From Thunnus maccoyii (taxonomy: Eukaryota; Chordata; Actinopteri; Scombriformes; Scombridae), in NCBI RefSeq assembly GCF_910596095.1, contig NC_056554.1, forward strand, positions 6,742,501-6,806,500: a stretch of DNA of 64,000 nt. The letters are read 5' to 3'. Below the pieces are notes generated by a model. The model was not told the origin of the DNA, did not search any database, and saw only the letters and a list, made by a program, of their open reading frames with translations. Below are positions 1 to 35,003 of this stretch, piece by piece. The translations under genes and the position numbers were made by a program. How positions within the stretch are numbered: position 1 is the first letter of the stretch; every line of letters begins with the position of its first letter.

Positions 1-327
1 AGAGAGCAGTGATTATGTCGAGGGGGTTTGGCATGTCACCTGAATTTGGACTGTTGACCAGATTCTTAAGATCTAACCTTGTATTCCCTGACATAGCATC
101 AAGGTTCTCATGTGCTGACTCACATACTGATGTATATTTCACATTCCTAGCTGTCACATTAACCATCATCAGTTTCTTCAGAAAATACCACGGAAGATCT
201 GAATTACACTTAACAAGTTCATCAGTAATGGTCCTCTCATCAATTTGAAGTATTGTCCTCAGGGATAGCTTCTCTTTGTAGTGCTGCTCCAAGCCCAGAT
301 CCCCCAATAATGTCTCCAGCTGATTCT
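1..327 (-). CDS. Gene A giant exon, N-terminal part (cut by window edge)
   Basis: The acceptor ...tccacag lies immediately upstream at 328-330; the exon opens in phase 1. It encodes the segment that in B and C begins ESLL.DL.LEQH..KLSLSTILQI and continues through WYFLKKLMMVNVTARNVK, open to the window edge. It is close to B and C, with a few-residue difference around 110 (extra ENL-type residues). This is the N-terminal helical region preceding the VLIG G domain. Confidence 0.85.
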
Positions 328-3300
328 CTGTGGACATGAATGACAATAATTATTAAAATTGTGTTTGGTTGTTTTAATGTATGAAAGCATACATCCAAAC
401 ATAATTTGGTACGTAAAATAAGTGCACTTGTAATGTTGATTGATGTAACCTGAAACCCCTGGTAAATCGTCACAGTGCACAATTTTGTGTGGTGCCTTCC
501 AACCTTACTAAAATATAAAGCACCCATAAAAGCAACACACGTCTTGACACACATCATCGTACGTTGACCTGCTTCAGCTAATCAGGATACACCACCGTCC
601 TAATTCAACCTTTCAAAAAATCAGTAATTTTATTAGATTTGCTCCCATGATTGGCATATGTAGACCAGTTAATAGAGGGCACAGTCCCAGGCATGCAATA
701 CACACCAATAGGGATTTTCCATAGTGGTGGGGGTTGTCAAACGGAGTCATGCCTTGAACAGCCATGAGCATTCAAGTCACGCTGGCAGTGGTGCAAGTGT
801 TTTTCCACTGGCAAGGTGAAATAAGTTGTTTACCTTGGTTAAGTGTGGGAGGTGTGGTGGTTTGTAGAAAATGTAGTAAGAGCCTGTCATCTGCAGCTCT
901 TCATCTAAGATCTCACTGTGGCTGTTTTTGCTTGTGCTACTCCTCCCTGCAATATTCAAAACTGAGACATTGAGTCAACTGTTAGATTCTGGTGTTCTCT
1001 TTGGTATTCTTTGGCATACGGGCAGCAGTTCAGCATGTATGGGAAGTAAGTATATATGAGAGCATACCTGGCAACATTTAGGTTTCAAAAATCGGGAGGT
1101 TTTTTTGGGGGGGTTGAAGTGAAAGATAACGTTTTACTTGAGTTGATGATACGCTTGTTAGGCTCCTGTAAGTGCAACAAAACCTTCACAAGTAGAAAGC
1201 CAGTAAGTACTTTATCAAACCACGTGCTGAACAAGTATGAAATATGTAGAAAAACAATATTTTCAACTGCTTTGCCCGCAGTGTCCCATCCACCGCCGGT
1301 ATGTTTTACACAACCACAGTGCACCACAACGAAAGCTGTCTGTATTTAGCCTAACTGTTTATGTGAGTTTGGCACATATCTTAACATTTGGCAAATTCTT
1401 GTAAATTTTACTTCTGGCTGAGACAAACCAGTACCTCCTCTCTCCACCAGCAGTGCCTGCAGGCAATCAATCACATCAGCAGCAGAGGACAGGGGACAAG
1501 ATGAAAGACTGCCTGTGCAGAGAGCAGCTGCGCACACACGCTGTACAGTGCCAGAAACATGTTGTGATAACGAAAAAGAAAAACTATGAAATCGGGAGAA
1601 TAACAGGAGTAATTACCAATTGGGAGCACAGTGGGAGAAAGGGTTAAAAATAGGGAGACCCCTGCAAAAATCCGGAGTGTTGGCTGGAGAGAGAGCAGCA
1701 GTTGACTCATCAGGTTGAATTGAGTATACGGGTTTGTACTAGTACTGAATAATCTCAGTAGCAAGCACAATTTGGACAAATTGGATTGGAAGATGGAAAA
1801 GGGATCACAAATGGATTGCTCAAGGAGCAGAGTCACTTGTGCTGATTAACAATGTTTATCATCACCAGGCACGGACATGTTACTCTACCCAAAACATCTC
1901 CTGTAAATGCGTGGTAGAGAGCAGATTTTACATTTGTTTTCTGTAACAATTTAGTTGGTTAATATTGACAGGGAAAAGAGTAATTGATGATCAGCTTTTC
2001 AACCTAGCTGACAGTTAGTTTGATGAAATATACAAGCAGAGTAGGCAGTCAGTGTCTGACTTTAGAGTGTGAGCATATGGCTATTTCCTGGGGGCAGTAG
2101 GTATCAGTGTAAACTCAGTACAAACCAAACTCGAAAAAGAATTGTTCATTAATTTTTTGCCGGCACCAGTTCAAACTAATTCTGTTCAAGCATAACCAAA
2201 CCCTAACGACCACACAAACATCTAAATTGACCAAAACGACAGTTGCAGGTTCGTTTTTAAGGTGTCTAGTGTGCTGCAGCTGACAAGCTTATTGGCTATG
2301 GAGCCTGCAAACTGACATTAGCAGTGCAATTTTACCTAGTGGATGTTTTTTTTGCTGCTGATTCAGAAAGCAAAGCATAAGAGTCTACAGCCATGCTATC
2401 GACTCTGTAAGGTTTTATAGGCACAGTGAGGTCAGCATGTTCACAATGACAATGCTAACATGCTGATGTTTAGCAGGTATAATGTTCTATTCTCACAATC
2501 CTAGTTTAGCATGTCAGTATGTCAGCCACAACAGGCTGGTGGGAATGTCATTAGTTTCTTAGATACTTAGGTCATAAACCAGAGATTTGGATAAATTTTG
2601 ACCTGATGATGGCGCTAGATGCAAAGTCAAAGGGTCACCAAAGTCAGTAAGATTCTTCCTTTCAAAATTTCATGGCAATCTATTTAATAGTAGTTGAGAT
2701 GTTTCAGTCTAGGCCAAAGTGGTGGACAGACAGACCAACAGATTGACATTACCATCCACAGAGCCATACCACTAACAATGAGGAGGTGAACAATAAAATA
2801 AACTGTGAAAGGTAAATAGAAGAGTAAAATAAATAAAGTATTACTTTTTTTACTTAATATCAACTGATTGGAGGAAAGCTCTAAAGCTTTATGCTTGTTT
2901 TTATGTTCCATTTTCATTACCACTATTATTTATTAATGCAATGTGTATATTTTTGACTTGTCTGATCTTCTCCAGGTGCTTTAATATAAATATAATATAA
3001 AATATAAATATAAAATATAATATAAAATATAAAACTAATATCCCAGAGGAGCTTTAAACATATTTCTGCAGACAAGCTGGTATTTGCCTTTATTTGTTTT
3101 ATTTCTCTTTATTTTATTGCTTCATAATTCTTTTTCGTAATGTTTTTCTTTTACTTACTTGTGTGTACAGATGTTACGACTGGCTTGCTTCTTCTTCCAT
3201 TTTTCAGTTGTGAAGAAACGTGGAGAGAGTAACAAACCCCCGGCTTCAAGCTGCTGAAAGTCAGGCTGTTTGTGTCTGTTGTCAGCTCTTGCACACAGCT

Positions 3301-6300
3301 CTCTTCTTCACTGCAACAAGTCACAATGTAGTTCTCCACTTCACCAGCAGGAGTGTCCCAACGCAGAGAAAGTGACTCATTGTTGACCTGATAGACTGTA
3401 ATCTGTGCAGGAGGGCTGGGCTCTGTGGGAACAACATAATGGTTTCAGTTATAATTGAAAAGTTTCCTCTATATTTGTACTGTTTTCTGCCAAGCATAAG
3501 CATGGCATCAGATTTATATCATTTGTCGCGAGCATGGTAAAACATGCTCACGAGCAAATTATATTATTTCACGTGCAGATATTATCTGCCAGTCACACGG
3601 TATAAGTCCTCATGAACAAATTCAACAACCAAGAGTGGTACAGGCAGCTGCGAACGAGAAACAAAACATAAGGAGAAGCAAACAATGGCACCTGCGTGTT
3701 TAGAACTAAGCAGCAAGCGCACAAAGCAGCCACCACGCACGATAGAGTTTCTGCATGGTAAGCGCTGGAGGGCACACATGCTCCCACAGGTTCACTCTGC
3801 TCTCGAAGCTGAGTTCTGCTCGCACGAACAGATCTGACTTTTGACAAGATCAAACTGCAAACTTGTCTACATTTCTCTGAAGGTCTATGCTAAGGATGAC
3901 ATTTATTTGTTTTATTTTCGCCAAGGATTATAAACTTGAATCATTATGAATGCCCATTTTCATCAACAACTTGAGGGCAGTGATACATGGAAAACTCTCA
4001 AAACAGAAATGGATCAGTGTTGATGGTATTTGAACGAGGGACAGAATGCCAGTCATCAGTAAGTAGCTGATGCAAGAGCCTCATAATGTTGTTAATGTTG
4101 TCTGTGTACCATAGTTATGACTTTCTGGTTTTATGAAGGCCTATTTATTTATTACAGTATATAGACTGTATGTCAGCAGAATTAATTACAAGATGATTTA
4201 TTAATGATGAGTTTTCTTTTTTTCTGTATTTCTTGTTATTTCACCTAAAAGGTAACTAGTTATTACTTGAATCACAATAGATTTTTATGTTTTTAAAACA
4301 TGTTACATTTCAAATTTTGCTTGAAATAAGCAACATGATGAACAAGGATTTGTCCAGACAAGTTGTGCGTTAAGTTTCCACCACAATGAAGTTAGTAATA
4401 TCACCAAACAATGTCAAACATAAAAATCTTTCTATAAAGATGAAATTTTCCCCTGTCGCCTTTCACTCCAGACTAAAGTTAACACTAAAGGTGTGTGAAA
4501 GCTCGTCAGATTATGATGAATCTATGTCGGACTGTTGGGGACTTCTTTTTTTAAAAGTCTAGCTAGATTTTGAGTCCTAAATAATGTATTATAGGTTTTT
4601 AACCATTTTTGTGTTATTATTGTACTTCTATGTAAAAGAATAAAGTGAAATATTATTGGGTTATATTTGTGGGAAGATTATTTTGGTGTGGGTTTCAATC
4701 TGTTTAGATGCAACTATACATTCATTTTTCTGGATAGACCTAATCCTAATCTAGATCACATTTATTATTTCACCTACAACACTTCTACATTCGCTGTAAC
4801 ACTGTTTTTCTGATAACTGCCTCATAAGTAACCCTGTGTGTACACGCAGCAGCCTGGGCTGTCAGTAGTTGGTGCTGTCTACTGCTGTCTGTTATGTCTG
4901 TTCTCCTTGCATATTTTACCTTTGTTTTTATTTATTTTGATTTGATTGTATTTGATTTTATTTCTTTGACTACGAAGCACTTTGTAACTGATGTCTATGT
5001 TGTTATATATATATAAACTTTGCTTGCTTGCTTGCTGTTGCTTCATGCTCTGAGCAGCTAGGCTCAGTATTCACAGCTCACTGCAGGTTGGTGAGTTTTA
5101 TGTACATTAAATCCATCATATAAAAATAAAACATCATGGTAATGATATGAGTAATGTGTACTCAGCTGTTGGGAATATATCTAAACACAAATGCCCTGAT
5201 TTGATGCTGTCCTTTTTAGTTACATGGCCAAACAGTCTGCCTGTTCAGTTAGTGACAGCTGTCAGTCACGGTGAAAGGAGGTCCATGTGGGTGTGATCGT
5301 GTTGCAAGTGACCAATCATAAGAGGGCCAGTGCCTTCCTTGGTTTCTGCCCCCAAATTGTCACAAGTCAGGTCTATTCCTATACAGTCTATGGCATGGAT
5401 ATCTTTATAAGGAGAACATCTTTATAAATCCATGGTCTATGGTCTATTCACACGAGCAGAACTCAACTAAGAGCAGCTTGTGAGAGCGTGTGTGCGCTCG
5501 CTAAGCAGAAACTCTCTGGCCTGCGGTGGCTGCTTTGTGTGCCTGTTGCTTCATTCTAAACAGGGCCGCTGCTAACCATTTGGAGGCACTAAGCATGATT
5601 GGTCATGGGGGCCCAGTTTTCTCTTCTTCATTTTTCATCTTTTTTTCAGAGATTCATGTTCTCTCTTACTTGCCATTATGCCTCATTCAGGGGCAGAGCT
5701 AGACTCTCAGCACAGAGGGGGCAAAGCATTCTCAAGGGGCCTTTCTAAAATGGTCATTTAAAAAAAAAGAAAACAGGTTGCCAGCCGCGTTCAAATGTTT
5801 CAGCGCTGAGGACAGCATGCGGTGCTCTACAGACTTTTTATATATTAGGTAAAAACATCTTATTTGCCTGAATTGAGTGATAGGGTACATACAATGAAAA
5901 AACTAATGGTCGGCCTGTCCATTACTAATTTATATATTTTTTCAATTTGTGTTCAAATTTAATAATGTGATAATTATCATGACATTTTATCAACCTTAAT
6001 TTTGGGGGCCCCCGTCTGGTACTTGAGGCCCCACGTGCTCTGTGTACTCTGCGTATGCGGAGCAGCGGCACTGGTTCTAAACACGCAGGTACTTCTCTTT
6101 TATTCTCCCATTTGTTTTGTTTTTTGCTCGTAGGTGCCTGCATTACTGTTGGTTGTTGAATTTGTGTGTTAGGGTCTATGTTGTGTACCAAACGCGAAGC
6201 AAATTTTCGGCCTTGTCCACGCCGCAGGATCAATTGTGTTTATTCGCCCCAAACAGCCAGCGAGCAACAGTCCCCACCGGAACAATAGGACGCGGCATGG

Positions 6301-7283
6301 CGATGTTACTGAAGCTCAGCCTACCTGCCATCATGACGGCTAACAACAGTCATACCGACACTTATCATTAAACACAGAGATACATTAGCAACTCTTCTCT
6401 GTTCGTTTTGCTGTGATAAACTGCATTAAGCCATCACACAAAACTCCCCCTAAAAACTGTATCATGAACTGACAGTGTAAGAAGTACATTCATGTATGTT
6501 AAAGTTCTCAGGAAACATTTGTTGAGCTCAACAACCAGTCAGCCAAAGCTTTACTGTATTGATAAAAAATTTCATTTTAATTCCAGCAACATTTTTTTAA
6601 TTTCAGATTTACCTGTGAAGACAGATAAAGAAGCTGTTTCACTTTGATTTCCATTTTCTGCTCTCCTTGTGATTCTGAAAGTATACTCAGTCCCAGGATG
6701 CAGTCCATCAACATCTACAGTGCTGGATTCTTCCACAGTCACACTTCCTTCATGTGTGTCACTGGAGTAATCTATATGTAGTTTATACCTAACAGGTGTC
6801 AAGCCAAGAGAAACAGTCTCAGTGCCAGCATGGAGAACTGTTACTTCTCCTGGTGGAGGAACATCTGTCATGAGAATAGAAGAAAAATACCTCTTAGGAA
6901 CTCCACATTACAACATGTTTTAAGTAGTAAAAATGTGTACAATTTATTGGCTTGAATAGTATTTATTTCTTCCTCTCTGCTGGACAATAGATTGCTTAAG
7001 GCCAACCTTCTACACCTGCATCACTCACACTTACAGTCAGACTGGGGTGTTTCAGGAGAGTCTCCTTCCTCACAGTCAAGGAAGGTATCGGGTGCATCAC
7101 AGAACTCCTTGATAATTGAGAAAAATATGCGTTTTTGGTGTAATGAACAATCAATAATCAATAACTGATAGCACAATATGTATTTACCATGTAATTTCAT
7201 TATTTTAACTATTGTCAATTATCCATTATTTTCTTTACCTCCTCTTCTTCAGTGTTATCCATTGTGGGTGCACTCTCAGTCAT
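1..7283 (-). CDS. GVIN/VLIG-like giant GTPase gene A (3' part outside window), FN3-containing
   Basis: Five coding exons are visible on the minus strand: 7239-7283 (start, 15 codons, MTES... ending in an EEEE run), 7035-7107 (acidic, 24 codons), 6613-6864 (FN3), 3159-3422 (FN3) and 327 down to 1 (start of the giant last exon). All junctions have AG/GT sites and the phases fit (0, then 1-1-1), so the reading frame stays open. The giant exon begins K-NQLETLLGDLGLEQ, clearly paralogous to genes B and C. The GTPase core must lie left of the window. The family (interferon-induced very large GTPase) is cytosolic/nuclear and interferon-responsive in vertebrates. A role in cell-autonomous immunity is inferred from family and promoter. 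The gene is large mostly because of insertions in its introns. Confidence 0.8.
1064..1690. mobile_element. Degraded non-autonomous DNA-transposon-like repeat
   Basis: The segment opens with catacctggcaacatttagg and closes with a roughly complementary ...ccggagtgttggctgg, with 'atcgggag' words repeated near both ends. This arrangement is typical of a fish repeat that I recall but cannot name with certainty. It lies in intron 4 of gene A. The ORFs across it look spurious. Confidence 0.35.
2395..2725. repeat. Interspersed fish repeat (gctaacatgctgatgtttagc family)
   Basis: The words gctaacatgctgatgtttagc, gatggcgctaga, aaagtcaaagggtcaccaaag and tttcatggcaatc occur in the order I know from a very abundant repeat in percomorph genomes. 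It is diverged and has no coding capacity. Its exact class is not certain to me. The rest of the 328-3158 intron shows only AT-rich unique-looking sequence. Confidence 0.5.
2981..3034. repeat. AT-rich simple repeat (ATATAAA-type)
   Basis: Tandem tataaatataa/tataaaa units, about 54 bp, in intron 4 of gene A. Confidence 0.8.
3159..3422 (-). CDS. Gene A exon: fibronectin type III domain (second FN3)
   Basis: Acceptor ..ttcccacag and donor gtaag bound a 264-bp phase 1-1 exon, the usual class for FN3 modules. It encodes an FN3 fold: ITVYQVNNESLSLRWDTPAG (strand A/B with the core Trp), ENYIVTCC, and the LKPGVCYSLHVS F-strand signature, then KNGRRSKPV. It also has an acidic EEESC loop. Gene C has a closely similar exon at 33722-33985; gene B has none. 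Confidence 0.85.
4850..5036 (+). mobile_element. LINE-like 3' tail
   Basis: A T-rich stretch leads into gaagcactttgtaactg and ends in (cttg)n. This layout resembles the 3' ends of fish CR1/L2/Rex-type LINEs, with a short tandem tail. No coding part remains. Assignment is by word similarity only. Confidence 0.4.
5561..6073. mobile_element. Non-autonomous hAT element (513 bp) with 8-bp target duplication
   Basis: The ends are imperfect inverted repeats, cagggccgctgct at the left and agcagcggcactg at the right (CAGNG-type hAT termini). They are flanked by attctaaa (5553-5560) and gttctaaa (6074-6081), 7 of 8 bases equal, the 8-bp duplication expected of hAT. The inside is non-coding. It sits inside the right inverted arm of the larger 3503-6466 insertion, so it is younger than that insertion. 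Confidence 0.85.
6613..6864 (-). CDS. Gene A exon: fibronectin type III domain (first FN3)
   Basis: This phase 1-1 exon lies between acceptor ...catgacag and donor gtaaat. It encodes VPPPGEVTVLHAGTETVSLG, a VRYKLHIDY strand, then LHPGTEYTFRITRRAENGNQ, the classic FN3 L-PGTEY-F-V pattern. Four residues (TDSS) present in the C homologue are absent between strands. Joined to the preceding exon it gives ...QSD-Y-VPPP. Confidence 0.85.
7035..7107 (-). CDS. Gene A acidic linker exon
   Basis: A 73-bp exon (24 codons plus 1 base) from acceptor ttatcaag to donor gtaagt. It encodes EFCDAPDTFLDCEEGDSPET then PQSD, an acidic, low-complexity linker before the first FN3. Homologues sit at 34754-34832 (C) and 17724-17802 (B). 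The frame is in phase with both neighbours. Confidence 0.75.
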
Positions 7284-7299
7284 CCCACACTGCTTCTCA
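7239..7299 (-). CDS. Gene A start-codon exon
   Basis: Acceptor cctttag precedes tgagaagcagtgtggg and then the ATG at 7281-7283. The 15 codons read MTESAPTMDNTEEEE and end on a phase-0 donor gtaaag at 7238. The same exon occurs in C (MTESVSTMDNSEEEE). In B it is altered so that the second ATG must be used. Confidence 0.75.
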
Positions 7300-7407
7300 C
7301 TAAAGGTAAAAGGAAAGAGGCCTGTAAGTTTGCAGCCAACAACACTAACAATAACACAAACAATATGGACCAAAAGCAAGAATCACAACTGTAATCTGTT
7401 GTTAAGG

Positions 7408-8169: not shown

Positions 8170-8535
8170 AAAAGACCACTTATATGTAAAAATACTCCAT
8201 TACAAGTAAAAGTGCTGCATTCATGATACTACCGCTTTATATATCTATTCTAAAGTGACAGAACAGAAGTATGATGAGCAAAAACAGTAAAGGTATCTGT
8301 TACACAGACAACAGTCCTGGTGATTAAGTTAGTATTACTGTTAGGTAGTTTAATCTAAAACAGTGCATCATGTTTTATGAGCTACTCATTTGTTTTGAAT
8401 GTAAAATCAGTGTAATCAGTTAAGTAGTAACCATAGCTGTCAAATGTAATGGAGAAAAAGGTATAGTACAGCTACTTATATTAAGTGGGCTACAGGATAA
8501 GTACATGTACTTAGTTACATTCCATTACTGTATTT
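8170..8535. mobile_element. hAT-like MITE remnant of the gtacttagttac family
   Basis: Words such as tacatgtacttagttacattcc and agtagtaac match the ends and middle of an abundant fish MITE. Copies lie in the same relative place in the 5' intron of gene C (35240-35670) and between its first exons (36640-36880), so this insertion predates the A/C duplication. Confidence 0.5.
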
Positions 8536-8633
8536 TTCCATGTTTTCTTTTGCTTTTTTCACTTTGCTTTTCATGTCATCCACATGAGAAAGACAGAAAA
8601 AAACACAGAGGAAGCAATAACATGGTGACCTAC

Positions 8634-8837
8634 CTTTGTAAGACTGATTTGTCCATGTCACGATGACATCCTTCTTTTATCCAGGAGTTTATATCTACTC
8701 TATATGCAATATTTTATAATAGGTCAAGAGTTTGGCCTGAAATGAAAGCACTGCACCCTCCTGCAAATGCCAAAGCACCACCTCAGGCTTCTCCTTTTAT
8801 ACTGCAGTTGGGTGCAGTCGCTTTGTGTTTCATTTCC
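8634..8837 (-). promoter_or_regulatory. Gene A first (5'UTR) exon and promoter: TATA box plus ETS-IRF composite element
   Basis: The donor gtaggt (8628-8633) closes a non-coding exon ending ...cttacaaag, starting near 8770 by inference. On the minus strand a canonical TATAAAAGG lies at 8793-8801, and GGAAATGAAAC at 8827-8837, about 25 bp upstream. The latter fits the ETS-IRF composite element (GGAANNGAAA), bound by PU.1 with IRF4/8, or a weak ISRE. This fits an interferon- or leukocyte-inducible gene. The transcription start is not shown by sequence alone. Confidence 0.6.
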
Positions 8838-8969
8838 TAGGAACAGCGGGCAGTTATGTAAGTTAAAAGAAAAGGAAACTTAACTCTCTGTTTGCATGTT
8901 CAAACCACATTGGAACACATGACTAAACCTGTCTGCCCCCATTAAATGTTTGTTTTTTTAAAAAAATAT

Positions 8970-12675: not shown

Positions 12676-15600
12676 TCATTTGATGTTGAATGACTCTTTC
12701 AGGCTTACTTTTGCCTGCTTAAGTGTGATATTCTTCCAAGTTGGAGGAATATCAGCAGGCCTTGCTTTATATGCATTAGCAAATTCATGGTTGAACTTTG
12801 CCATTACATATTTCCAGTAGTCTGAGGCCTCAAGGCTTACATCTGGAGCAATTTTCCAGTCTGGGAAAATTTCTTTGTAACGCTTGTAAGGGTGCCATTC
12901 ATCCTTAGTAGCATCGCAGCGGAAACATGTGTCACTGATCACAGCAGAAGAACATATGTCAGTGACAAGTTTTTCTGTGGCATTCCACCTGTATCTACCA
13001 AAACCCTCTGGCCGATGTAGTGAAGTCCAATGCTCAGTATGTGCTTTTCCTCCTGCCTCACAAGGCGCTTTGCAGAATGGACACTGTTTACCACATCCAA
13101 TCAGTCTGCTGAAAAGCTCATTCTGAGGATTCACATGGAGATTTATTAGTTTCATTTCAATGTTTGTCTTTTTAAACTTCTCTCTAAGAGCTTGGGCCAT
13201 CTCCTTCACGCACTGTGTGAGCCAGTGAGCAAACTGTTCCTTGTCAGCATTGTTCAGGATCATGAACGCTCCAAGAGCATCCTGGGAAATTACCAGTTTA
13301 TCACCAAGTGCTTTGCAGATGTCTTCAACAAATGTCTTCAAGTTGCCACTCCTTCCTGTTTTGGCCTTGTTGATGACATTGTTTATGCTATTGATACTTG
13401 ACTGAACGTGTCGATCCTCAAACTCAAACGCTTTAGACGGGTTAGAGAAGTGTTCTTTTATTTGGTTGAGTGTCCATTCCTTTACATAACCCTCATATGA
13501 GCAAATGTAGCGCCGATAGTTTTCAAAGTCATCCTTGGAGAGCAAATCCTGTAAAACTGAATACTGGAAGAATATCCGGGTGCTGAACTGATGGCATGTC
13601 AGCATTTCACCAATGATGTCAGGACCCAAGGAGCGGTTGACAAAGTCCTCGACTGCAGGCTTCAAGCATCTGTCAGTGAATTCTTCTGCCTTCTTCTGGC
13701 ACTGATTTCGTTCATTGAACACATCTTTGAAATCTGCACGGAACTTTTCTTTGTTTTGTTTGAGGCATGTTTTGGGATCATTCACATGTATGAAATCTTC
13801 ATGCATTTTCTGAAATGTTCTAGCTGCAAATCCACAAATGTACTGTTTCAGAGAAACTTCAAACTCAATGTCTGCCTTCAGATTTTGGTTGTTTTGCAGC
13901 CTCTCATCAATCATGCGTAGGATCTCCAGGATGTAAGTTTCATGGTAATTGGTTTTTCGTTCCATTTTCTGTGTCAAAATGTCTTCACAAGCAGCTATGA
14001 TGCTGTCAGCCATTTGTTGCATAGCCACTACTTGATCTTTGTTAAACCACTTTTTCACAGTGTGTTTAACTTGGTTGAAGGCTCCTTCAACTGTAGGCTT
14101 ATATTTGAAAGGCATTTGTCCACAATTTTTCAGGTCTTTTTTATTCAGTATTTCATTTGCATGACTGCCCTTATGTAAGAGATTTGCTCTCAAGTTGTGA
14201 GATACACTGGTGAAGACATCTGTTACCTTTTGTTCACAAAAAGATAGTTCCTTCAAAGTTTTATCCCACATCTCATCAAATTCTTTGTCTAGCTCTGTGT
14301 CTGTCATCTTGACTTTTTTCTTCCGACAGTCCTCAATTAATGCACACACTCTCTCCTCTAATTGTTTTGTGTGATTCTTCTTGACTCTATCAAGTTCTGC
14401 CATTCCCTGTTTGATTTCTGCTGCTGCTGTGAGCTGATTGAGTACAGAGCTCTGAATTTCTCGTCGAAGGCTTTTTGCACTGTTTGAGAATTCCTCTTTG
14501 TATCCTTCAACTAGGTAGACATGACCCTCTGTTTGCTTGAAGTACTTTGTCAGGTTTTCAAGAATCTTTGTCTCCCATTTAGACAGCACTGTGCAAGCTT
14601 CATTTTTTAAACTTGTGAGAAGTTCTCTCATGTCATGTTTCCCAGATTTCAAAGCAAATTTACCAAAATTGGAAATTCTTGTTTCAGCATTTGTGACCCA
14701 GGTGTACATGTCTTTTTTGAATTCCCATTCCCATTTGTTGAACTCTGTGCAAAGCCTCATGTAGGCATCAGCCACCAGGCTGTTTCTGAAGCTGAAGATG
14801 AAGTTTTCATGCTTTACTGCATTCCAGAGGCTTGACATCCACTCTGTAAACTCAGAGATTTTGTTAGCAGATGAGTTACAACTTCCCAACATTTGGATGA
14901 TGTTCTTCTTGAGCTCATATACAGCTTCACTGTACCCTGCATTGACTGGTGCCATTGGTGGGTTTCCATTCCAAAGTCCAGGAATGTACCAGTTCCCAGT
15001 GTCTGGACTGTACTCCATCACATCAGTGAAGCTCTTGTTCTCCTCTTTCTTTTCCATTTTGGCTGCTGCCTGGGTCATCTCATTTAACTGTTGCAAGAGC
15101 AGTTTCCTGTCTCGTAAGTTCTTCTCATGGGCTGAAACATCTGACACATTCTGGTGAACAAACTGACATTTGGGCTTTTTGCCTACCTCCTTCATCCTGA
15201 GAAAAGCATGCACAACTATTTGTAGGATGTCTTTCATTTCTGTTGAATTCTCCATTGCAATATTGATAATGGTGATATCACTCAGCCCCACAACAAGTGT
15301 TGCAAGCTCATTGTCATGCTCATGGCTATCATCCAGTTGTGCAAGCTCTGGTGACTTTAAGCCCTCAGTGTCAATGATCACCATGAAGTCACAGTTGAGT
15401 ACTTTTTTGACATCTTCATTGACTCTGATGAGCAACATGAAAGCACCTCGAGTGCATCGGCCACTGCTGACGGCAAACTGCACTCCAAACATCGTGTTAA
15501 GGAGAGTGGACTTTCCTGTGCTCTGAACTCCAAGAACTGTGACCACCAATATCTTGCTCTTAGGAGACACCAAGGCATTGAGCTGAGAGAGAACATCACT

Positions 15601-17960: not shown

Positions 17961-18016
17961 TGTGGAAACACTCAGTCATCCCACGCTTCCAGTGCAGATA
18001 TTCAAGCTGCTTCTCA
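17955..18016 (-). CDS. Gene B start exon with shifted initiation codon
   Basis: The exon runs from acceptor ctttcag to donor gtaaat. Relative to A and C, two bases are missing just after the ancestral ATG (17977-17979), putting that ATG out of frame; it would end in a stop 11 codons on, inside the next exon. The second ATG (17958-17960, ATGGAG) is in frame. B therefore has a two-codon first coding exon and a short overlapping upstream ORF. Confidence 0.6.
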
Positions 18017-20760: not shown

Positions 20761-21485
20761 AGAGAAATTTTCAGGATCACCTGGTTTCCCGGAAAACGAA
20801 ACTTAATTTTACAGTAAATCACATGATAAAACTTAAAGCCACCACAGATGGCTTAATTCATGCACAGAGTTGTTTTCCCTGCTGTGCTGCAGAATTCAGT
20901 AAAAATATGTGGAGACCACGAGAATCACACAATGCTGATTTCATGTCACAGTTTCTCCATAAAATAAAGGAATATACATGTAAACACAAAGTCTTCCACA
21001 TGATTATTGTCTGACATACACAAACACATTTTGGTGCAGTAATAGTAATAGCAACTAAGTAAGCGATATAAAAATGATGTACAGTACAACTGTATTTTAA
21101 TAAGCAAATGAGAGGAAATTCCACCTGGATTTATTCTAAATTTTAAAAAGCACAGTTTTGTCATGAATGACTTTTTAAGGAATTAAATCAAAATTCAATT
21201 AACTAATTAATATAAACCACTTTTTTTTTTTTTAAACTTCTGATTCATGTTCATACTAAACCTACATGGGTCTGATCATTAACTGGTTCACCTGCTATAA
21301 TTGAAATTTTAATGCAGAGGGAGATCTGCATTTCAATCACCCTTAAAAATGAAAGTAGACATGGTGATAAAATGATCCAAGTGGAGAATATGTATCTTCA
21401 CTTTTTGTGTAGACTAAACTAATGATTGTAGTTTTTTATACAGTTACAATAAATAGTCTCAATGGTCAGAACAGTACATTAAACA
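20761..21485. other. Intergenic DNA between gene B promoter and pop7 copy
   Basis: Paralogous to 38680-39085 and 39745-39870 by gene C. The middle of the C copy is replaced or extended by other DNA and a piggyBac-type element. No gene seen. Confidence 0.5.
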
Positions 21486-22800: not shown

Positions 22801-22851
22801 ACAGAGTGTGTGTGGATATGAGCACACATATTCACACACACTCTGAGGGAC

Positions 22852-23307
22852 ATGACAGAGCCGCGCAACCCAGGGATGTCCTCCATCCCTCAGACAGCCC
22901 CTGTACACACTGACTCCACCTCCCCGGCTGTAGAGATGGATCCAGTAGAGTACACCCTTCGGAAACGGCTCCCCCGGAAACTCCCCAAGAGACAGAACGA
23001 TGTCTACGTCAACATGAAGACTGATTAACGGGCCCAGCTGGCACGTTGTCAGAAGCTGCTGGAAGGTGGGGGTCACAGGGAGATCTGTGTCCATGGCCTG
23101 GGCCTGGCCATCAACAGAGCTATCAACATTGCCCTTCAGCTGCAGGCCAGCAGCCAGGGGGCGCTACAGCTGGCAGCCAACACCTCCACAGTAGAGCTTG
23201 TGGATGACCTGGAACCTGAAGATCCTGATGAGGCTGGGGAGCCCATGACACGTACACACAACAACTCGGCCATTCATATTGAGGTTTTCTACCCTGACCC
23301 ACAGTGA
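22852..23307 (+). pseudogene. pop7: Duplicated pop7 (RNase P/MRP subunit p20), inactivated
   Basis: It aligns along its full length with the intact pop7 at 43746-44201: same ATG context, and same tail HNNSAIHI.VFYPDPQ. An in-frame TAA at 23026-23028 replaces Phe59 (TTC), so only 58 of 151 codons would be read. The upstream acceptor region is deleted and the downstream poly(A) region of the intact copy has no counterpart. Flanks and the 5'UTR exon are duplicated as well, so this is a segmental, not a processed, copy. Few substitutions elsewhere suggest recent loss. Confidence 0.88.
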
Positions 23308-24523
23308 CTTGGATAGAGGTTTCCCTGATGTGTGTCAAGCAGAGGTTCTCTATTAGTCCTCTTTGTTCCCTCATTAATCAGTAGACACATATTACAGAGT
23401 TATCTGATGGGGCTGAGTGTGTGGAGACCTATGATGGCAGCAGCAGAATGGAGCGACATACAGTGTGTTGGCTGTACATGTATCAGTAAACTGTGTAGGA
23501 ATACTCCAGTTGGACTGAATATATTATGCTCTTTTGTCACGCGTTTTGTGTCTTGTCAAAAATTGTTAGTGTCATCACTTTTTATGTTTGCATGTCTTGA
23601 AGCAACAGTGATGTTTGCCGGATGAAACCTCAGTGTAATTTAATACTTGTAGACATGGCTGTGCCAAATGTAAATGTACAAGTGTCTTTAATTTTAAGGC
23701 CTAAGAGCTGCACAAGTGTTCACAGTTTCATGTCTGTTTTTAAATGTGGAAATATTTAGGAAAAACTGAGAAATCCTAAGTTTACAATTCAGGCAGGTGT
23801 TGTTGTAGTGAATGTCCACTAGATGTCAGTAGTTTACTACACATACACATGCCAGGATGTTATCATTCAGCAATCTTGCTTCCATGGCACCATGTGGCAA
23901 CAACTTACTCTCAAATAATGTTTATGGCATGTGTACACATGTGTTCAGTGTTACACATGAGAACATGAGCCCAACTAAAATCCTAAAGATCTGACACACA
24001 CAAAAAAGACTGGAGCTTAAAAGTAGAAAATCTGTTTGAATAGCAATTACACCAATCAATCAATCAATCAATTAATTTTTATTTATATAGCGCCAAATCA
24101 CAACAAAAGTCATCTCAAGGCACTTTTCACATAGAGCAGGTCAAGACCGTACTCTTTACTGTTTTTGTGAGGCATGGTTGAACAATGTTAAACTCATGTG
24201 GGTCAGGCTTCATTCATTTTTGCAGTGATATTGGAAATAGATGCCCTGTCGCAACCTAACAGGCCTCCAACTTCTAGGTGCAATCAATATTTTCTAGGTG
24301 TTCCACTCCATAGTTCACTCTAAAGATATAAGTGTAGGGGTCAGACTCACTGGAAACAGACACATACACACTACGTACAGATTTAAACTTGCAGTCTTAA
24401 CTCACACACACAAGTACATCCGCACACAAAGTGCAAGAGCAGTGCTTCCCAAAGGCCTCATTTTGGTCATGGTGTGCTTCACCATTTCCATGTTTAACAT
24501 CTACATTTCAAGGTGCAATCATT
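23308..24523. other. Duplicated pop7 3' flank and epo-side flank
   Basis: 23308-23925 matches 44202-44825, and 23950-24523 matches 45838-46367; about 1 kb present by the intact pop7 (44826-45837) is missing here. The homology ends at 24523/46367, about 180 bp from the epo stop codon. Confidence 0.7.
24050..24165. mobile_element. Short repeat insertion (tttatttatatagcgcc family)
   Basis: After a (caat)n run comes ttatttatatagcgccaaatcac, then gcacttttcacatagagcaggtc, a well-known fish interspersed repeat end. The paralogous sequence at 45950-46010 lacks it, so it arrived after the duplication. Its LINE/SINE class is uncertain. Confidence 0.55.
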
Positions 24524-25610: not shown

Positions 25611-26690
25611 GTAATTGAAAATTTTTCTCTGTGTAATTGAAGTATTTAGGTAATTGAAAAAGTAATTGAAAAAATATTGAAAGTAATTTTTAAAATTTTT
25701 TATCATAACTGCAGTTTAATGACTCACTGCAGTCCTGTGGCTCACACAGCTGGGGCTGGATTTTGGTTTATTCTTATTTCAACATGCATTAAACATGTTT
25801 ACATGATACTCATCTCACAATGGCAAACACACACACAACTTAAGCTGTGTTACTACAGCAAATGTGTGTTTTGTCTTGTTTCAACATTCTTTTTCAAATG
25901 AAAAAACCCAAGACTTCATATAAAACATTTAAGACATTCATAACTGATTTTGTCTCTTTACTTAAGTTAACAGAAGTAAGTAATGTATTCATTTAATACA
26001 CAGTCTCTGGTACGTTATGACAATACCACATATATGCTGATATTTTAATTCATTTAAAAATGTACATACATGGCACCAGTAACAGTATGTAACCAGTATG
26101 TATACATGTTGACATATGGACTAAATTATCTTTTGATTCATTAAGAAAAAGTAAATATTTGACACTAAAAACTTCATAAACACATAAACAAACTATTCTA
26201 TATTCTAAGAAAAGTAAAAATCACATATCAATCATAATTTGATCAAAAAACAAACTTTCTATCCTTCATACATGTTGATAATACCACATATAGATTGAAC
26301 AGTCTTTCATTTAAAACTGTACATATTTGGCATCACATACTTCACTGTCACTTTGATGCTTTGATTAATTGCATACATCTTTTCAATTACATTATAATGA
26401 AAATCAACAGTCACAAAATTATACAATGCAAGCTCAGATTTAATGATTTTAATGTTTGCAACATGTGCTCCTAATATTTACATTGATTTAAAGTATTTAA
26501 ACATGTCTTCATCAACATCAATATACAGTTAAAGCAGATTGTTTTTATTTAACATTAAATGCAATCTCAGTTAGAGATGAGCGCTCAAAAACAATACTAT
26601 TTGTGTCCCCTCTCTTTCATATAAAACAAACCAAGATCAAAATATTCATTGGATGATGATAGATGAGCATAAAGAGGAGGATGTGCACCT
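25610..26690. other. 3' flank of the orphan GVIN tail
   Basis: Paralogous to 11470-12675. A minus-strand AATAAA (plus 26544-26549) lies about 185 bp after the orphan tail's stop and may also serve gene C. No gene seen. Confidence 0.5.
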
Positions 26691-26732
26691 CTGTAACATC
26701 AAATCACATGAGGAGGAAATGTTAGTACTATC

Positions 26733-27913
26733 TCACTTAATGTTAAATGACTCTTTCAGGCTAGCTTCTGCTTCCTTATGTGTGATATTTTTCCAGGTTG
26801 CAGGAATATCAGCAGGCTGTGCATTGTATTCTTTAGCAAACTCATTGTTGAACTTTGTCATTACATATTTCCAGTAGTCTGATGCCTGAAGGCTTATATC
26901 CGGTGGAATTTTCCAGTCTGGGAAGATTTCTTGATAACACTTGTAAGGGTGAGATCCATGATTTGTCGCTTCACATAGAAAATTCTTGTCACTGGTCACA
27001 AGAGAAGAACATATGTCAGTGACAAGTTGCTGTGAGAAAAAAGACCTGTATTTCCCCAGACCCTGTGACCGATGTAGTGAAGCCCAGTGCTCAGTATGTG
27101 CTTTTCCTCCTGCGTCACAAGGCGCTTTGCAGAATGGACACTGTTTACCACATCCCATCACTTTGGTGAAAAGTTCATTCTGAGGCTTCATGTGGAGATT
27201 TTTTAGTTTCATTTCAATGTTCGTTTTTTTTAAATGTCTCTCTAAGAGCTTGGGCCATCTCCTTCATGCACTGTGTGAGCCAGTGAGCAAACTCTTCCTG
27301 GTTGGCATTGTTAAGGATCATGAAAGCACCAAGAGCATCCTGGGAAATGACCAGTTTATCACCAAGTTCCTTGCAGATATCTTCAACAAATGTCTTCAAG
27401 TTGCCACTCTTTCCTTTTTTGGCATTTTCCATGACATTGTTTATGCTTTTGATACTTGACTGAAGTCGTTGATCTTCAAACTTAGACACCATTAATAGGT
27501 CAGAGAAGTGTTTCATTATTCGGTCAAATGTCCACTCCTTTACATAATCCTCATATGAGCAAATGTAGCTCAGATACTTTTCAAAGTTATCCTTGGTGAG
27601 CAAATCCAGTAAAACTGCATACTGGAAGAAATACCGGGTGCTGAACTGATGGCATGTCAGCATTTCACCAACGATGTCAGGACCCAAGGAGCGGTTGACA
27701 AAGTCTTCGACTGCAGGCTTCAAGCATCGGTCAGTGAATTCTTCTGCCTTCTTCTGGCACTGGTCTTGTTCATTGAACACATCTTCTTCACGAAACTTTT
27801 CTTTGTTTTTATGCAGACATCTGTAAGGATCATTCACATGTATGAAATCTTCATGCATTTTCCGAAATGTTCTGGCTGCTAATCCACAGATGTGCTGTTT
27901 TAAAGAAACTTCT
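26733..27913 (-). pseudogene. Orphan GVIN C-terminal tail (about 390 codons) with frameshift
   Basis: Two overlapping-register ORFs (27214 up to about 27913, and 26733-27212) match the last quarter of genes B and C, including CGKQCPFCKAPC and the final SLKESFNIK. One extra A in an eight-A run near 27222-27229 shifts the frame, ending the first part at ...FKKNEH. Two residues are also missing in FREEDVF. It stops abruptly at about 27913, where it meets DNA repeating its own 3'UTR (ctctgtaacatcaaatcaca at both 26692 and 27915). It is diverged from both B and C. I read it as the leftover of a third paralogue after unequal crossing-over; it probably lies in the 3'UTR of gene C. Confidence 0.85.
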
Positions 27914-27959
27914 ACCTCTGTAACATCAAATCACATGAGGAGGAAATGTTAGTAGTCTC

Positions 27960-30900
27960 CTATTTGTTGTTAAATGACTCACTCAGGCTTGCTTCTGCTT
28001 GCTCAGGTTTGATATCCTTCCAAGCTGAAGGAATATCAGCAGGATTTGCATTGTATTCTTTAGCAAACTCATCGTTGAACTTTGCCATTACATATTTCCA
28101 GTAGTCTGAAGCCTCAAGGCTTACATCTGGAGCAATTTTCCAGTCTGGGAAAATTTCTTTGTAACGCTTGTAAGGGTGCCATTCACCCTTAGTAGCATTG
28201 CAGCAAAAATTCACATCACTGATCACAGCAGAAGAGCATATGTCAATGGCAAGTTTTTTTGTGGCTTTCCACCTGTATTTACCAAGACCCTCCGGCCGAT
28301 GTAGTGAAGCAAAGTGCTCAGTATGTGCTTTTCCTCCTGCCTCACAAGGCGCTTTGCAGAATGGACACTGTTTACCACATCCAATCAACTTGGCGAAAAG
28401 CTCATTCTGAGGCTTCACGTGGAGATTTATTAGTTTCATTTCGATGTTTGATTTTTTAAACTCCTCTCTAAGAGCTTGAGCCATGTCCTTCACGCACTCC
28501 GTGAGCCAGTGAGCAAACTGTTCCTGGTCAGCATTATTCAGGATCATGAATGCACCAAGAGCATCCTGGGAAATGACCAATTTATCAAGTTTCGTGCAGA
28601 TATCTTCAACAAATGTCTTCAAGTTGCCACTCTCTCCTGTTTTGGCCTTTTTCATGGCATTGTTTATGCTACTGATACTTGACTGAAGATGTCGATTTTC
28701 AAACTCAAACACAGTAGACGGGTTGGAGAAATGTTCCATTATTTGGTTGAGTATCCATTTCTTTACATAATCCTCATATGAGCAAATGTAGCTCAGATAC
28801 TTTTCAAAGTCATCCTTGGAGAGCAAATCCAGTAAAACTGCATACTGGAAGAACATCCGGGTGCTGAACTGTTTGCATGTCTGCATTTCATCAATGATGT
28901 CAGGACCCAAGGAGCGGTTGACAAAGTCTTTGACTGCAGGCTTCAAGCATCGGTCGGTGAATTCTTCTGCCTTCTTCTGGCACTGGTCTCGTTTATTGAA
29001 CACATCTTTGAAATCTGCACGAAACTTTTCTTTGTTTTGAGTCAAACATCTGTAGGGATCATTCACATGTAAGAAATCCTCATGCATTTTCTGAAACTCC
29101 CTGGTTGCAATTCCACAGATGTGCTGTTTTAAAGAAACTTCAAAGTCAATGTCTGTCTTCAGATCTTTGTTGGTTTGCAGCCTCTCATCAATCATGTGTA
29201 GGATCTCCTGGGTGTAAGTGTTATGGTAATTAGCTTTTCTTTTCATTTTTTCACTTACAAACTGTGTGCAAGCAGCTATGATGCTGTCAGCCATTTTTTG
29301 TGCAGCGATTGTGTGACCTTGAATGTTGAATAACTCTTTACATCGGTTAAAGAATCCTTCAGCTGTATATTTAAAAGCCTCAAGTCCACAATCTTGCAGA
29401 CTTTTTTGGCTTAATAATTGACATGCACGACTCCCCTTATGTGAGAGATTTGTTCTCAGGTAGTGAGACACACTAGTGCAGACATCTGAAGCCTTTTGTT
29501 TAGAAAAGGATAGTTCCTCAACCATTTTAGTCCACATCTTATCAAATTCTTTGTCTAGCTCTTTGTCTGTCATCTTGACTTTTTTCTTCTGACATTCTTC
29601 AATTAATGCACACACTCTCTTCTCTAATTGTTTTGTGTGATTCTCCTTGATACTATCCAGCTTTACCATTCCCTGTCTGATGTCAGCTGCTGCTTCGAGC
29701 TGATTAACCACAGACCTTTCCATTTCTCCTCGAAGGCTTTTTGCACTGTTTGAGAATTCCTCTTTGTATCCTTCAACCAGGTAGACATGACCCTCTGTTT
29801 GCTTGAAGTACTGTGTCAGATTCTCAAGAAGCTCTGTCTCCCATTTAGACAGCACTGTGCAAGCTTCATTTTTCAAACTTGTGAGAAGTTCTCTCATGTC
29901 ATGTTTCCCAGATTTCGAAGCAAATTTACCAAAATTGGAAATTTTTGTTTCAGCATCTGTGACCCAGGTGTACATGCCTTTTTTGAATTCCCATTCCCAT
30001 TTGTTGAATTTTGTGCAAAGCCTCATGTAGGCATCAGCCACTAGGCTGTTTCTGAAGCTGAAGATAAAGTTTTCATGCTTTACTGCAGTCCACAGGCTTG
30101 ACATCCACTCTGTAAACTCAGAGATTTTGTTAGCAGATGAGTTACAATTTCCCAACATTTGGATGATGTTCTTCTTGAGCTCATATACAGCTTCACTGTA
30201 CCCTGCATTGACTGGTGCCATTGGTGGGTTTCCATTCCAGAGTCCAGGAATGTACCAGTTCCCAGTGTCTGGACTGTACTCCATCACATCAGTGAAGCTC
30301 TTGTTCTCCTCTTTCTTTTCCATTTTGGCTGCTGCCTGGGTCATCTCATTTAACTGTTGCAAGAGCAGTTTCCTGTCTCGTAAGTTCTTCTCATGGGCTG
30401 AAACATCTGACACATTCTGGTGAACAAACTGACATTTGGGCTTTTTGCCTACCTCTTTCATCCTGAGAAAAGCATGCACAACTATTTGTAGGATATCCTT
30501 CATTTCTGTTGAGTTCTCCATTGCAATATTGACAATGGTGATATCACTCAGCCCCACAACGAGGGTTGCGAGCTCATTGTCATGCTCATGGCTATTATCC
30601 AGTTGTGCAAGCTCTGGTGACTTTAAGCCCTCGGTGTCAATGATCACCATGAAGTCACAGTTGAGTACTTTTTTGACATCTTCATTTACTCTGATGAGCA
30701 ACATAAAGGCACCTCGAGTGCATCGACCACTGCTGACTGCAAACTGTACTCCAAACATTGTGTTAAGAAGAGTGGACTTTCCTGTGCTCTGAACTCCAAG
30801 AACTGTGACCACCAATATCTTGCTCTTAGGAGACACCAAGGCATTGAGCTGAGAGAGAACATCACTCACCCATCTGAGAGGTATGTTGGATGCATCTCCA

Positions 30901-33900
30901 TCAACAAGCTCAAGAGGAAAGCCATCAAGTAACAATCCTGCACAGAGTTTTGGAAGATGCTGTAATTGTTGACGTGATGGGTCTGTTTCTGGAAGAGAAA
31001 CTGAAGCTTCATAGATTTGACCCATCTCACGGAAGAAGTGTTCAGTCCCCAGTGAGCTGTTGGAAAGTTTTCTGTCAATGTCTTTAATCTCCTCTTTGTT
31101 TTCAGAATTTTGGCATTTCTTTTTGTACTGCTCCCTGAGATCAGACAGTTTTTCTCGAGACAGGTTATCAAGGTTAATTCGCATCCATTTCAGGAAATAG
31201 GACCTCTCTATCCTTGGGCTTGATATTGCATCAATGAAGCATGTCATAGCGTTTGACATGTCATAAGAGTTCTGTTTTTTCCGAAGTTTTCTTTTCTCTA
31301 CCTGAAGATCACTTTTGTACTTTTCTATGTTTTCAGATCCAACTTTTCGAAGCCGAAATTCTTCTTTCTCTAAGCGAGTCAGTTCCTTCCATGTGTGACC
31401 TTGCAAGGGAAGTTGAACTTCTTTGTATTCAAGGGTATCTTGAATTTCTGCAGTGATGGCATCTGCATTTTTCTTGGCAGTCTGGCACTCTGGAGATTCT
31501 TCATCAACCAAGATTCCCAGTTCATGGGCAATGTCAGCCATCTGCTCTATTGGAATCTTTATCTCTGATTTCTCAACTACATCCCTGACTATTTTCCGCA
31601 TATTTTTGATAAAATCTGCATCGTTCATCTGTTTAGTCTTCAATATGACATTTTTAGTCAATCCCAACTTGGTTGCTACATTTTTCAGAGCATCTAGTCT
31701 GAACCGCTTGCTTTGATGGTTGCCCACCAAGAAGATCTGTGCCTTGTGGTGTTGGTTGGTCAGTAGCCTGCACTCAGAATCCAAATCGTCAAAGAATACA
31801 AAAACTGCAGCAGATGTTTGACACAAAAAGGAGTATTGTGTTTCAAATGAAGCAATGTCCCCACGGAGATTAGCTACAGTGACTGGCTCACTGAAAAGAT
31901 CCATGTTTTTGTTTCCACAAGGGAGGTACCAAGTAATTTCAACCAATCCATTGGATATTCTTCTTGGACTGTCGCCACACTCCATATTGTGGTGAACAAA
32001 GGTGTCATGGTACTGCTGAGAATTGCTCAAAAGCTTATTGAGAATCTCTGACTTAGACAAGGAGCATTCACCCAGTCTCACAAAAGATATCATTGGAAGA
32101 TTCGAGAGAACAACTCTGTCTTCAATGAAGCCCTTGGATTCAGAAAGGGACTGAGGTCTGTACTTTTTAACAATGTCTCTCATTGCCCACAGCATGAGTG
32201 TGCACTGTTTTGTGTCACAATTAGGAAGCAGCAGAGGCACAGAAAACTGACACATAGACATTTTGAGTGCAATTTCCTGCTGTACAAAACCATCAGAACA
32301 CAGAAAGAGAGCATTGATTATGTCGAGGGGGTTTACAATGTCACCTGAATATGGACTGTTGACCAGATTGTCAAGATCAAACTCTGTATTCCCTGACATA
32401 GCATCACAGGTTGAATCATATGCTGATGTATATTTTACATTTCTAGCTGTCACATTAACCATCATCAGTTTCTTCAGAAAATACCATGGAAGGTCAGTAT
32501 AACACTTAACAAGTTCTTCACTCATGGTCTTTTCATCAATCTGAAGTATTGTGCTCAGGGATAACTTCTCACTGTAGTGCTGCTCCAAGTCCAGATCCTT
32601 CAATAAGCTCTCCAGGTGTGTCTCTGTGGATATGAATGATAGTGATCATTAAAATCATGGTTGGTTATTTTAATGTACTAAGCATGGATCCAAACTGAAT
32701 TGGTGCATAGAAGAAATACATTTGCAATGTTGATTACCCCTGGTAATTTGTCACAATGCACAATTTTGCATCTTTACTGATATCCTTCGATAAGTATAAA
32801 GCAATCATAAGGGTGTCAGTTGCAACGAGGCTTTAGTTAATCGGCATACTTCACTGTCCTATTTCCCAGCTTTGATGCATGTCAACTTTTCAAAAAAGCA
32901 ACAATTTTATCACCTTTGCTCCCAAGATTGGCTCAAGGGAGATATTTACTAAGCCTGTAACATATTACCTTCCATGGCGCAAACTTTTGCGTTGCCACAA
33001 TTTTTTAATTTAGCAGGGTACTGAGACTGAAAAGGACTGGAGCACAAAACAAAGTGTATTCTGCTGTTGAACATGGTATACTGGTTGAAGAGCAGAGACG
33101 TTCGATCCGCAAGTGCATAGTCATCCCGCAAAAGAAACACTACATGTCAGGAAATATGAGTTAAATATCCTGATGTTGCCAGCTCAGCAAAAAGATCAGT
33201 GATTGAATGAGTTATGAAAAATCAGTGGGAGAGTTTTGGTAAAACTTGTAAAGTCCTTTCTCAAGATTGTTTTTGTAAACAGATAATATAACAGTTAATA
33301 ACTAAAACTGCCTCAGTCATGATGCGCTGGATTGGGGCAGCTGTGAAACATTAAGTCAGGGAAAACATGCAATCTGCAAACACAGAAATCTGTGAACATC
33401 TCTCAAGTTGTATGTCTTGAATTTCTGCAGTGATAACCCTCATATTTTTCTTGCCATTCTGGTACTCTGAACAATCTTCATCAAGCAAGATTGCCAATTC
33501 AGGGGCAATGCCAGCCATCTGCTCTAATCACATCTTCCACCGTGAAAAGGAAAAAGGATCCATCGCGTCTCTTTGTATCCGCAAATCCGTTTTATTCTAC
33601 TTTATTTTTATAATCCTTTGCAGAGTCAGGCTATTTCCCTTAACTCAATTAACTTTGTGACTTTATTTTGAGTATTTCTTTATAATTTGTTTTTTCATTG
33701 TAATGTTTAACTTTTACTTACTAGTGCGGGAAGATGTTACAGTTGGCTTGCTTCTTCTTCCATTCTTCAGCTGTGCAGAAACTTGGAGGGAGTAACACAC
33801 CCCTGGATTCAGGCTGCTGAAAGTCAGACTGTTTGTGTTCGTCGTCAGTTCTTGCACACAGCTCTCTTCTTCACTGCAACAAGTCACAATGTAGCTCTCC

Positions 33901-35003
33901 ACTTCACCAGCAGGAGTGTCCCAACTCAGAGAAAGTGACTCACTGTTGACCTGATAGACTGTTATCTGCACAGGAGGGCTGGGCTCTGTGGGAACAATAT
34001 AATGGTTTCAAGTATAATTGAAAAGTTTCCTCTATATTTGTGCTGTTTGCCTGCCAAGCATAAGAGGTGTGATAGACAGAAAAGCAATATACAATCACCT
34101 CACACAATTTATACACATACACATTTTGCAACCTCTTTAGTCTGACACAAACCTTTATAACAAAAACTGACAGAATATCTCAGTTGTAAGAAGTACATTC
34201 ATGTATGTTAAAGTTATGAGGACATATTTGATGAGCTCAACAACCAGACAGCCAAAGCTTTACTGTATTGATAAACAATTTCATTTTAATTTCAGCAACA
34301 TTTTTTAATTTCAGATTTACCTGTGAGGACAGATACAGAAGCTGTTTCACTTTGATTTCCATTTTCTGCTCTCCTTGTGATTCTGAAAGTATACTCAGTC
34401 CCAGGATGCAGTCCATCAACATTTACAGTGCTGGATTCTTCCACAATCACACTTCCTCCATGTGTGTCACAGGAGTAAACTATATGTAGTTTATACCTAA
34501 CAGATGAATCAGTGGGTGTCAAGCCAAGAGAAACAGTCTCAGTGCCAGCATGGAGAACTGTTACTTCTGGTGGAGGAACATCTGTCATAAGAGAAAAGAA
34601 GAAAAATACCTCTTAGGAACTCCACATTACGCCATGTTTTAAGTAATAAAAATGTGTACAATTTATTGACTTGAATAGTATTTATTTATTTCTCTCTGCT
34701 GGACAATAGATTGCTTAAGGCTGACATTCTACACTTGCATCACTCACACTTACAGTCAGACTGGGGTGTTGCAGGAGAGTCTCCTTCCTCACAGTAACGC
34801 TCAAGGAAGACATCTTGTGCATCATAGAACTCCTTGATAATTGAGAAAAATATCCATTTTTGATGTAATGAATCAATCAATAACTGATAGGACAGTATGT
34901 ATTTGCCATGTCATTTCATAATTTTTATTTTTTTTCAATAATCCATTATTTTGTTTACCTCCTCTTCCTCAGAGTTATCCATTGTGGATACACTTTCAGT
35001 CAT
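27960..35003 (-). CDS. GVIN/VLIG-like giant GTPase gene C, FN3-containing
   Basis: Five coding exons: 34959-35003 (start), 34754-34832 (26 acidic codons), 34321-34581 (FN3), 33722-33985 (FN3) and 27960-32623 (giant exon). They total 5313 nt in frame, 1770 residues. Order: acidic N-terminus, two FN3 domains (about residues 43-215), a helical region, the VLIG G domain with GVQSTGKST at about 826-834, RCTRGAF, DTEG and FVHQN, long charged helices, the Cys/His module CGKQCPFCKAPC, end ...SLSESFNNK. All splice sites are canonical. The G domain is almost the same as in gene B, while the C-terminal third differs more. An interferon-inducible immune GTPase role is inferred from the family. No stops or shifts are seen in the five exons. 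Confidence 0.88.
33408..33535 (-). pseudogene. GVIN coding fragment stranded in gene C intron 4
   Basis: About 125 bp (ttgaatttctgcagtgat... to ...gccatctgctctaat) match gene C's own coding exon at about 31437-31548 at roughly 80 percent by eye, same strand. It has no splice sites and no continuation. It is a relic of an earlier GVIN giant exon between today's giant exon and FN3 exons. Confidence 0.75.
33722..33985 (-). CDS. Gene C exon: fibronectin type III domain (second FN3)
   Basis: Phase 1-1, acceptor ..ttcccacag, donor gtaagt. Encodes QITVYQVNSESLSLSWDTPA, the EEESC loop, and LNPGVCYSLQVS. It differs from the gene A exon at few positions. Cysteines CC...C...C are conserved between A and C, unusual for a plain FN3 and possibly structural. 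Confidence 0.85.
34321..34581 (-). CDS. Gene C exon: fibronectin type III domain (first FN3)
   Basis: Phase 1-1, acceptor ..ttatgacag, donor gtaaat. Encodes VPPPEVTVLHAGTETVSLG, TDSSVRYKLHIVY, and LHPGTEYTFRITRRAENGNQ. Compared with A it has four extra residues (TDSS) and lacks one Gly after PPP. Confidence 0.85.

Follow-up and report, generated by a model that had tools for sequence, protein, structure and literature searches.

Tandem GVIN/VLIG-type genes with giant GTPase exons predicted with and without upstream FN3 exons

Mammalian members of the GVIN/VLIG family bear the Pfam domains URGCP and URGCP_GTPase. According to passages of a 2025 preprint, its finding on human GVIN1 is the first biological function reported for a GVIN protein: GVIN1 forms coatomers on cytosolic bacteria and, in concert with further interferon-induced factors, blocks actin tails (PMC11974893). 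In the same passages, the modelled dimer of human GVIN1 makes contact through the GTPase domains, the model includes a second large GTPase-like domain and a C-terminal domain, and the choice of targets among GVIN members is left unsettled (PMC11974893). The mouse and human GVIN ORFs are described in passages of another paper as a single colossal exon (PMC6855407). In salmon, VLIGs are expressed in response to type I IFN or virus according to passages of PMC4337061, whose gene table for type I IFN and virus includes a VLIG-1-like gene with the values 917 and 421.

No connection between this family and fibronectin type domains (FN3) emerged from the literature considered. The word fibronectin had 0 occurrences in the text of the GVIN1 paper (PMC11974893), and no paper joining FN3 and GVIN was found among the matches listed, as judged from titles and the starts of abstracts. 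The statement of a preliminary description of this DNA that mammalian GVIN/VLIG proteins are not described with FN3 domains was uncontradicted in passages of PMC11974893, PMC6855407, and others. Apparent links were rejected: in the matching passages, the FN3 of PMC4337061 was part of an accession number, and the terms in PMC6047052 and PMC10706248 belonged to separate genes or to a reference. Predicted FN3-VLIG proteins may already be present in public protein databases.

Gene layout and the giant exon

Three GVIN/VLIG-type genes (A, B, and C) were found on the minus strand of the 64-kb window, that is, the whole stretch of DNA that was analysed; all coordinates of exons and promoter-like blocks given below refer to this strand. 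From the gene content, the host is probably a bony fish. The start of the window cuts through gene A, leaving only the 5' part of its giant exon. In the open-frame listing of the minus strand, the giant frames lie at 12676-17424 (B) and 27960-32645 (C), and a frame at 2-349 is the 5' end of the third (A). Exon ends were set by motif search and sequence reading and were then verified by in silico joining.

In genes A and C, two small acidic exons (ac1 and ac2) are followed by FN3a, FN3b, and the giant exon, whereas ac2 of gene B leads directly and in frame to the giant exon, without FN3 exons. Gene A consists of ac1 with the start codon(s) (7239-7299), ac2 (7035-7107, phase 0-1, 73% to ac2 of gene C), FN3a (6613-6864), FN3b (3159-3422), and the 5' part of the giant exon (1-327), recognised by a phase-1 acceptor and an open frame. 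In gene B, ac1 (17955-18016) contains the start codon and codes for Met-Glu only, and ac2 (17724-17802) joins straight to the giant exon (12676-17360) in phase 1. Gene C has ac1 with the start codon(s) (34959-35019), ac2 (34754-34832), FN3a (34321-34581), FN3b (33722-33985), and the giant exon (27960-32623); all ac1 and ac2 exons were placed by exon joining. The giant exons (4,685 nt in B and 4,664 nt in C) make up most of each protein. The claim of the preliminary description that A and C have two phase 1-1 FN3 exons, as against a direct acidic-giant join in B, is borne out by exon joining and Pfam matches, and with it, from the exon anatomy of A, B, and C, the presence of two architectures within one cluster. 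Its single 'acidic exon' has to be amended: an acidic stretch does precede the FN3 or giant exon, but it is divided between two coding exons, ac1 and ac2.

With the exons connected at GT-AG sites, the reading frames of all three genes were free of internal stops. The ac1-ac2 junction is in phase 0, and all junctions from ac2 through FN3a and FN3b to the giant exon, as well as the direct ac2-giant junction, are in phase 1. Scored by a donor frequency matrix, the ten donors ranked between the 96.8th and 99.8th percentile (top 3.2%) among all minus-strand GTs. The predicted products, counted from the second ATG, comprise 1,763 aa (C), 1,589 aa (B), and at least 313 aa (A, partial). In A and C, the earlier (first) ATG keeps the reading frame; since it is out of frame in B and soon runs into a stop, B relies on the second ATG. 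An untranslated first exon is likely to lie upstream of the coding exons. Transcription and splicing of the three genes as laid out here are predictions from the sequence.

Both full giant exons (2/2) matched URGCP and URGCP_GTPase (PF25683) in Pfam with E<1e-120, the respective values being 1.7e-123 and 3.5e-199 for B and 8.1e-121 and 1.5e-201 for C. The GTPase motifs GVQSTGKS and DTEG were read by eye in the giant exons, and the P-loop is intact. The giant exons of B and C are 90% identical, with a dN/dS of 0.42 overall; in 100-codon windows, the ratio falls to 0-0.07 over codons 551-800, which are the GTPase core, and reaches up to 0.73 elsewhere. For the giant exon of C, no PDB sequence was matched at E<=0.01, and the structure prediction of residues 1-419 was unusable (pLDDT 34.8). 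NCBIfam gave matches only far below the curated cut-offs, and Rfam gave none at the gathering score. Viral contigs and prokaryote genomes were scanned with the alignment of the B and C giant exons as the query; by two short peptide patterns, no relative was found among 153 and 584 pattern matches, respectively, in these collections, which are not meant for vertebrates.

The cluster resembles GVIN/VLIG genes, such as human GVIN1 and mouse VLIG-1, in its giant coding exon, its tandem copies, the presence of both URGCP and URGCP_GTPase, and its ISRE motifs at promoter-like blocks. It differs in that separate small exons are predicted to encode the N-terminus, together with two FN3 domains in A and C. 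By prediction, the whole ORF lies within a single exon in neither B nor C; the single exon belongs to the descriptions of mouse and human and need not be a defining trait of the family. The matched Pfam domains bear the name of URGCP (up-regulator of cell proliferation), the other candidate for comparison; however, the genes studied here form a tandem cluster and have interferon-type promoter motifs. Within the GVIN/VLIG family, A and C likely represent a variant with FN3 domains, a placement made by Pfam domains.

FN3 domains in genes A and C

The translations of 4/4 FN3 exons matched Pfam fn3 above the curated cut-off, in agreement with the earlier assignment, with E values of 1.5e-7 and 8.4e-8 for FN3a and 5.1e-14 and 2.7e-15 for FN3b (A and C, respectively). 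A profile built from these four exons picked up no further FN3 in six-frame ORFs of at least 25 aa, the next match having an E value of 0.39. FN3a and FN3b share 25-27% identity (tblastn) and are, therefore, not recent copies of each other. The best PDB matches of FN3b of C were fibronectin 1fnf (6.8e-15) and titin 8q6t (1.2e-12), and FN3a of C, for which the FN3 fold would be a seven-strand beta sandwich, was predicted with low confidence as all-beta with six strands (mean pLDDT 50.7). While FN3b of C in this respect resembles the FN3 domains of fibronectin, titin, and tenascin by matching fibronectin and titin structures, the FN3 domains of this cluster are predicted to reside on a cytosolic GTPase. 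The proteins of A and C start with MDN[ST]EEEEE, judged by eye not to be a signal-peptide-like start, which makes cytosolic FN3 domains plausible.

Between A and C, FN3a is 86% identical and FN3b 87.5% identical. FN3b is under purifying selection in this pair: dS was 0.296 and dN 0.069 (dN/dS 0.23), with 14.8 silent changes in 60.7 sites and 13.2 replacement changes in 200.3 sites (Fisher p 5e-4 on rounded counts). FN3a, with 1 silent and 7 replacement changes (dN/dS 2.4, p 0.68), was indistinguishable from neutral. Separately, the dS of FN3a was 0.016 (one silent change), as against the far higher value in FN3b, and this low value hints that the 5' part was recently converted between A and C.

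These observations bear on the question of whether the FN3 exons are part of the GVIN message at all. The region has been rearranged, given that the last intron of gene C carries an old relic of another giant-exon sequence (33414-33581, minus strand; tblastn 49-52% identity, E 4e-8 to 6e-8), and the FN3 exons might accordingly be a separate small gene or dead exons outside that message. However, a phase-1 FN3b donor faces a phase-1 giant acceptor in both A and C, FN3b is constrained, the acidic exons of the same kind in B lead straight to the giant exon, and no terminal exon was noticed by eye between FN3b and the giant exon. We consider a separate or dead origin of these exons very unlikely.

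Assuming that the FN3 domains are joined to the giant GTPase, they would provide it with a binding or spacing arm. The role in 'binding or oligomerisation' proposed in the preliminary description is still a guess. The FN3 domains could instead be structural spacers without a binding role, baggage tolerated in a fast-evolving family; FN3a, without significant constraint in the A-C pair, fits such a role, whereas the constraint on FN3b speaks against it, although a spacer could show constraint as well. We regard this spacer reading as a minority possibility and, on balance, prefer a protein-binding or spacer arm that would bring the FN3-bearing members another partner or target.

Promoter-like blocks and ISRE motifs

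Five duplicated blocks in the window resemble a promoter with a first exon and fall into two types, P1 and P2. The block of gene A (8182-8969) is of type P2, contains an ISRE at 8869 and a TATA-like box, and is similar to 35313-36043 and 36817-37281. The latter two, assigned by block similarity and motif search, are the P2 blocks of gene C: the nearest copy (35313-36043), which is without a strict ISRE, and a second copy (36817-37281) with an ISRE at 37214. Gene B has a P1 block (20362-21094) with an ISRE at 20792, 85% to a block at 38283-39022. This last block, recognised in the same way, is an orphan of the P1 (B-type) kind upstream of gene C, with an ISRE at 38711 and a TATA-like box. No B-type gene body was found for it, and it could be an alternative promoter for gene C or an orphan.

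The strict form GAAANNGAAACT of the ISRE consensus occurs exactly four times in the 64 kb (8869, 20792, 37214, and 38711), in 4/5 of the blocks, this form having been chosen after the motif had been spotted by eye. In 300 simulations under a first-order Markov control, its mean count was 0.30 and its maximum 3. The looser motif GAAANNGAAA gave 10 sites against about 4 expected, and 6/10 of these are not strict ISREs. Because the ISRE motifs sit in promoter-like blocks, interferon induction of these genes is likely, as far as such motifs can indicate it.

Origin and possible meaning of the two architectures

The FN3 exons are symmetric (1-1), and their skipping, gain, or loss would keep the frame. 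In the preliminary description, FN3 was viewed as a cassette that neighbouring paralogues can gain or lose. The junction phases permit such a cassette; nevertheless, a recent event of this kind is at odds with the mismatch of the introns, the other promoter of B, and the lack of a relic at B, as detailed below. At E<=1e-3, the introns of B, including the 363-bp ac2-giant intron, matched none of those of A or C, whereas the introns of A and C can be aligned in part with one another (74-93%). In the comparison of introns and upstream regions, B and C shared the P1 block upstream only, and the promoter of B is of type P1, whereas the nearest promoter blocks of A and C are of type P2. No FN3 relic was found near B by similarity search or by an FN3 profile on six-frame ORFs.

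The 5' exons and the giant exon group the genes differently. In ac2, which is short and gapped, A and C share 16 sites, A and B 2, and B and C 3. For the 5'-most 327 nt of the giant exon, the numbers are 13 (A and C), 24 (A and B), and 14 (B and C). The difference in grouping between ac2 and the giant 5' end had a Fisher p of 2e-4, and the preference of the giant 5' end alone for A-B over A-C had a p of 0.10. The shared sites in ac1 were 4 (A and C), 1 (A and B), and 2 (B and C). The discordance between ac2 and the giant 5' end points to an exchange, or to homogenisation, near the last intron. From these comparisons, the 5' ends of B and of A and C look like two old, distinct modules on exchangeable giant exons.

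A recent, clean intron-to-intron event, in which B lost the two FN3 exons or A and C gained them, would have been frame-silent, since all introns from ac2 to the giant exon are in phase 1, and the 90% identity of the B and C giant exons agrees with it. It is weakened by the unmatched intron and different promoter of B, by the missing FN3 relic at B, and by the grouping of ac2 of A with that of C; we judge it improbable. Old 5' modules on exchanged giant exons, as set out above, are preferred. A recent conversion between the giant exons of B and C was considered as a main claim and was toned down, as the permutation test was weak: measures of the clustering of silent changes gave p values of 0.019, 0.064, and 0.19.

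We consider it probable that the locus as a whole is a two-architecture GVIN/VLIG cluster with ISRE-mediated induction, an FN3 arm, and exchanged giant exons. The course of events would be as described below. Interferon would induce the genes via the ISRE promoters. If human GVIN1 is a guide, the giant GTPase part would assemble on intracellular targets in a GTP-dependent manner. The tandem FN3 domains, as a cytosolic protein-binding or spacer arm, would give the FN3-bearing members another partner or target, while the FN3-less members would retain the core activity. The giant exons would have been exchanged or homogenised between the two old 5' modules at about the last intron. A more speculative extension, which we hold to be rather doubtful, is that the tandem FN3 domains are a recognition arm on a coat-forming GTPase, that neighbouring paralogues swap the 5' module by recombination at the last intron, and that FN3-bearing and FN3-less subunits may co-assemble on different intracellular targets. 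The two forms hint that some members of a defence family have an extra binding or spacing arm, and paralogues with and without FN3, side by side in one cluster, would allow a direct test of whether the target or partner of such a GTPase depends on an added cytosolic FN3 arm.

A decayed partial copy of the giant-exon 3' end (26655-27918, minus strand) lies in tandem directly after gene C; its positions 26687-27912 are 86% to 27914-29141, in two overlapping frames. The duplicated P2 block and the orphan P1 block are further rearrangement scars. In view of the orphan P1 block and the partial 3' copy, we considered whether an A-type gene had replaced a B-type gene at the C locus. This was not adopted, as the partial copy shows no preference between B (60 shared sites) and C (65 shared sites; p 0.72).

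An Rpp20/POP7-like gene (PF12328) is present in two copies, at 43656-44201 (+) and 22821-23937, in blocks that are 97% identical; the former reads through, and the latter has an in-frame stop. These copies and the GVIN genes seem to form one duplicated unit. A Tc1-like DDE_3 transposase fragment was found at 48776-49228 (-), and at 41168-41419 (+) lies an RNase H fragment below threshold that may derive from a retroelement.
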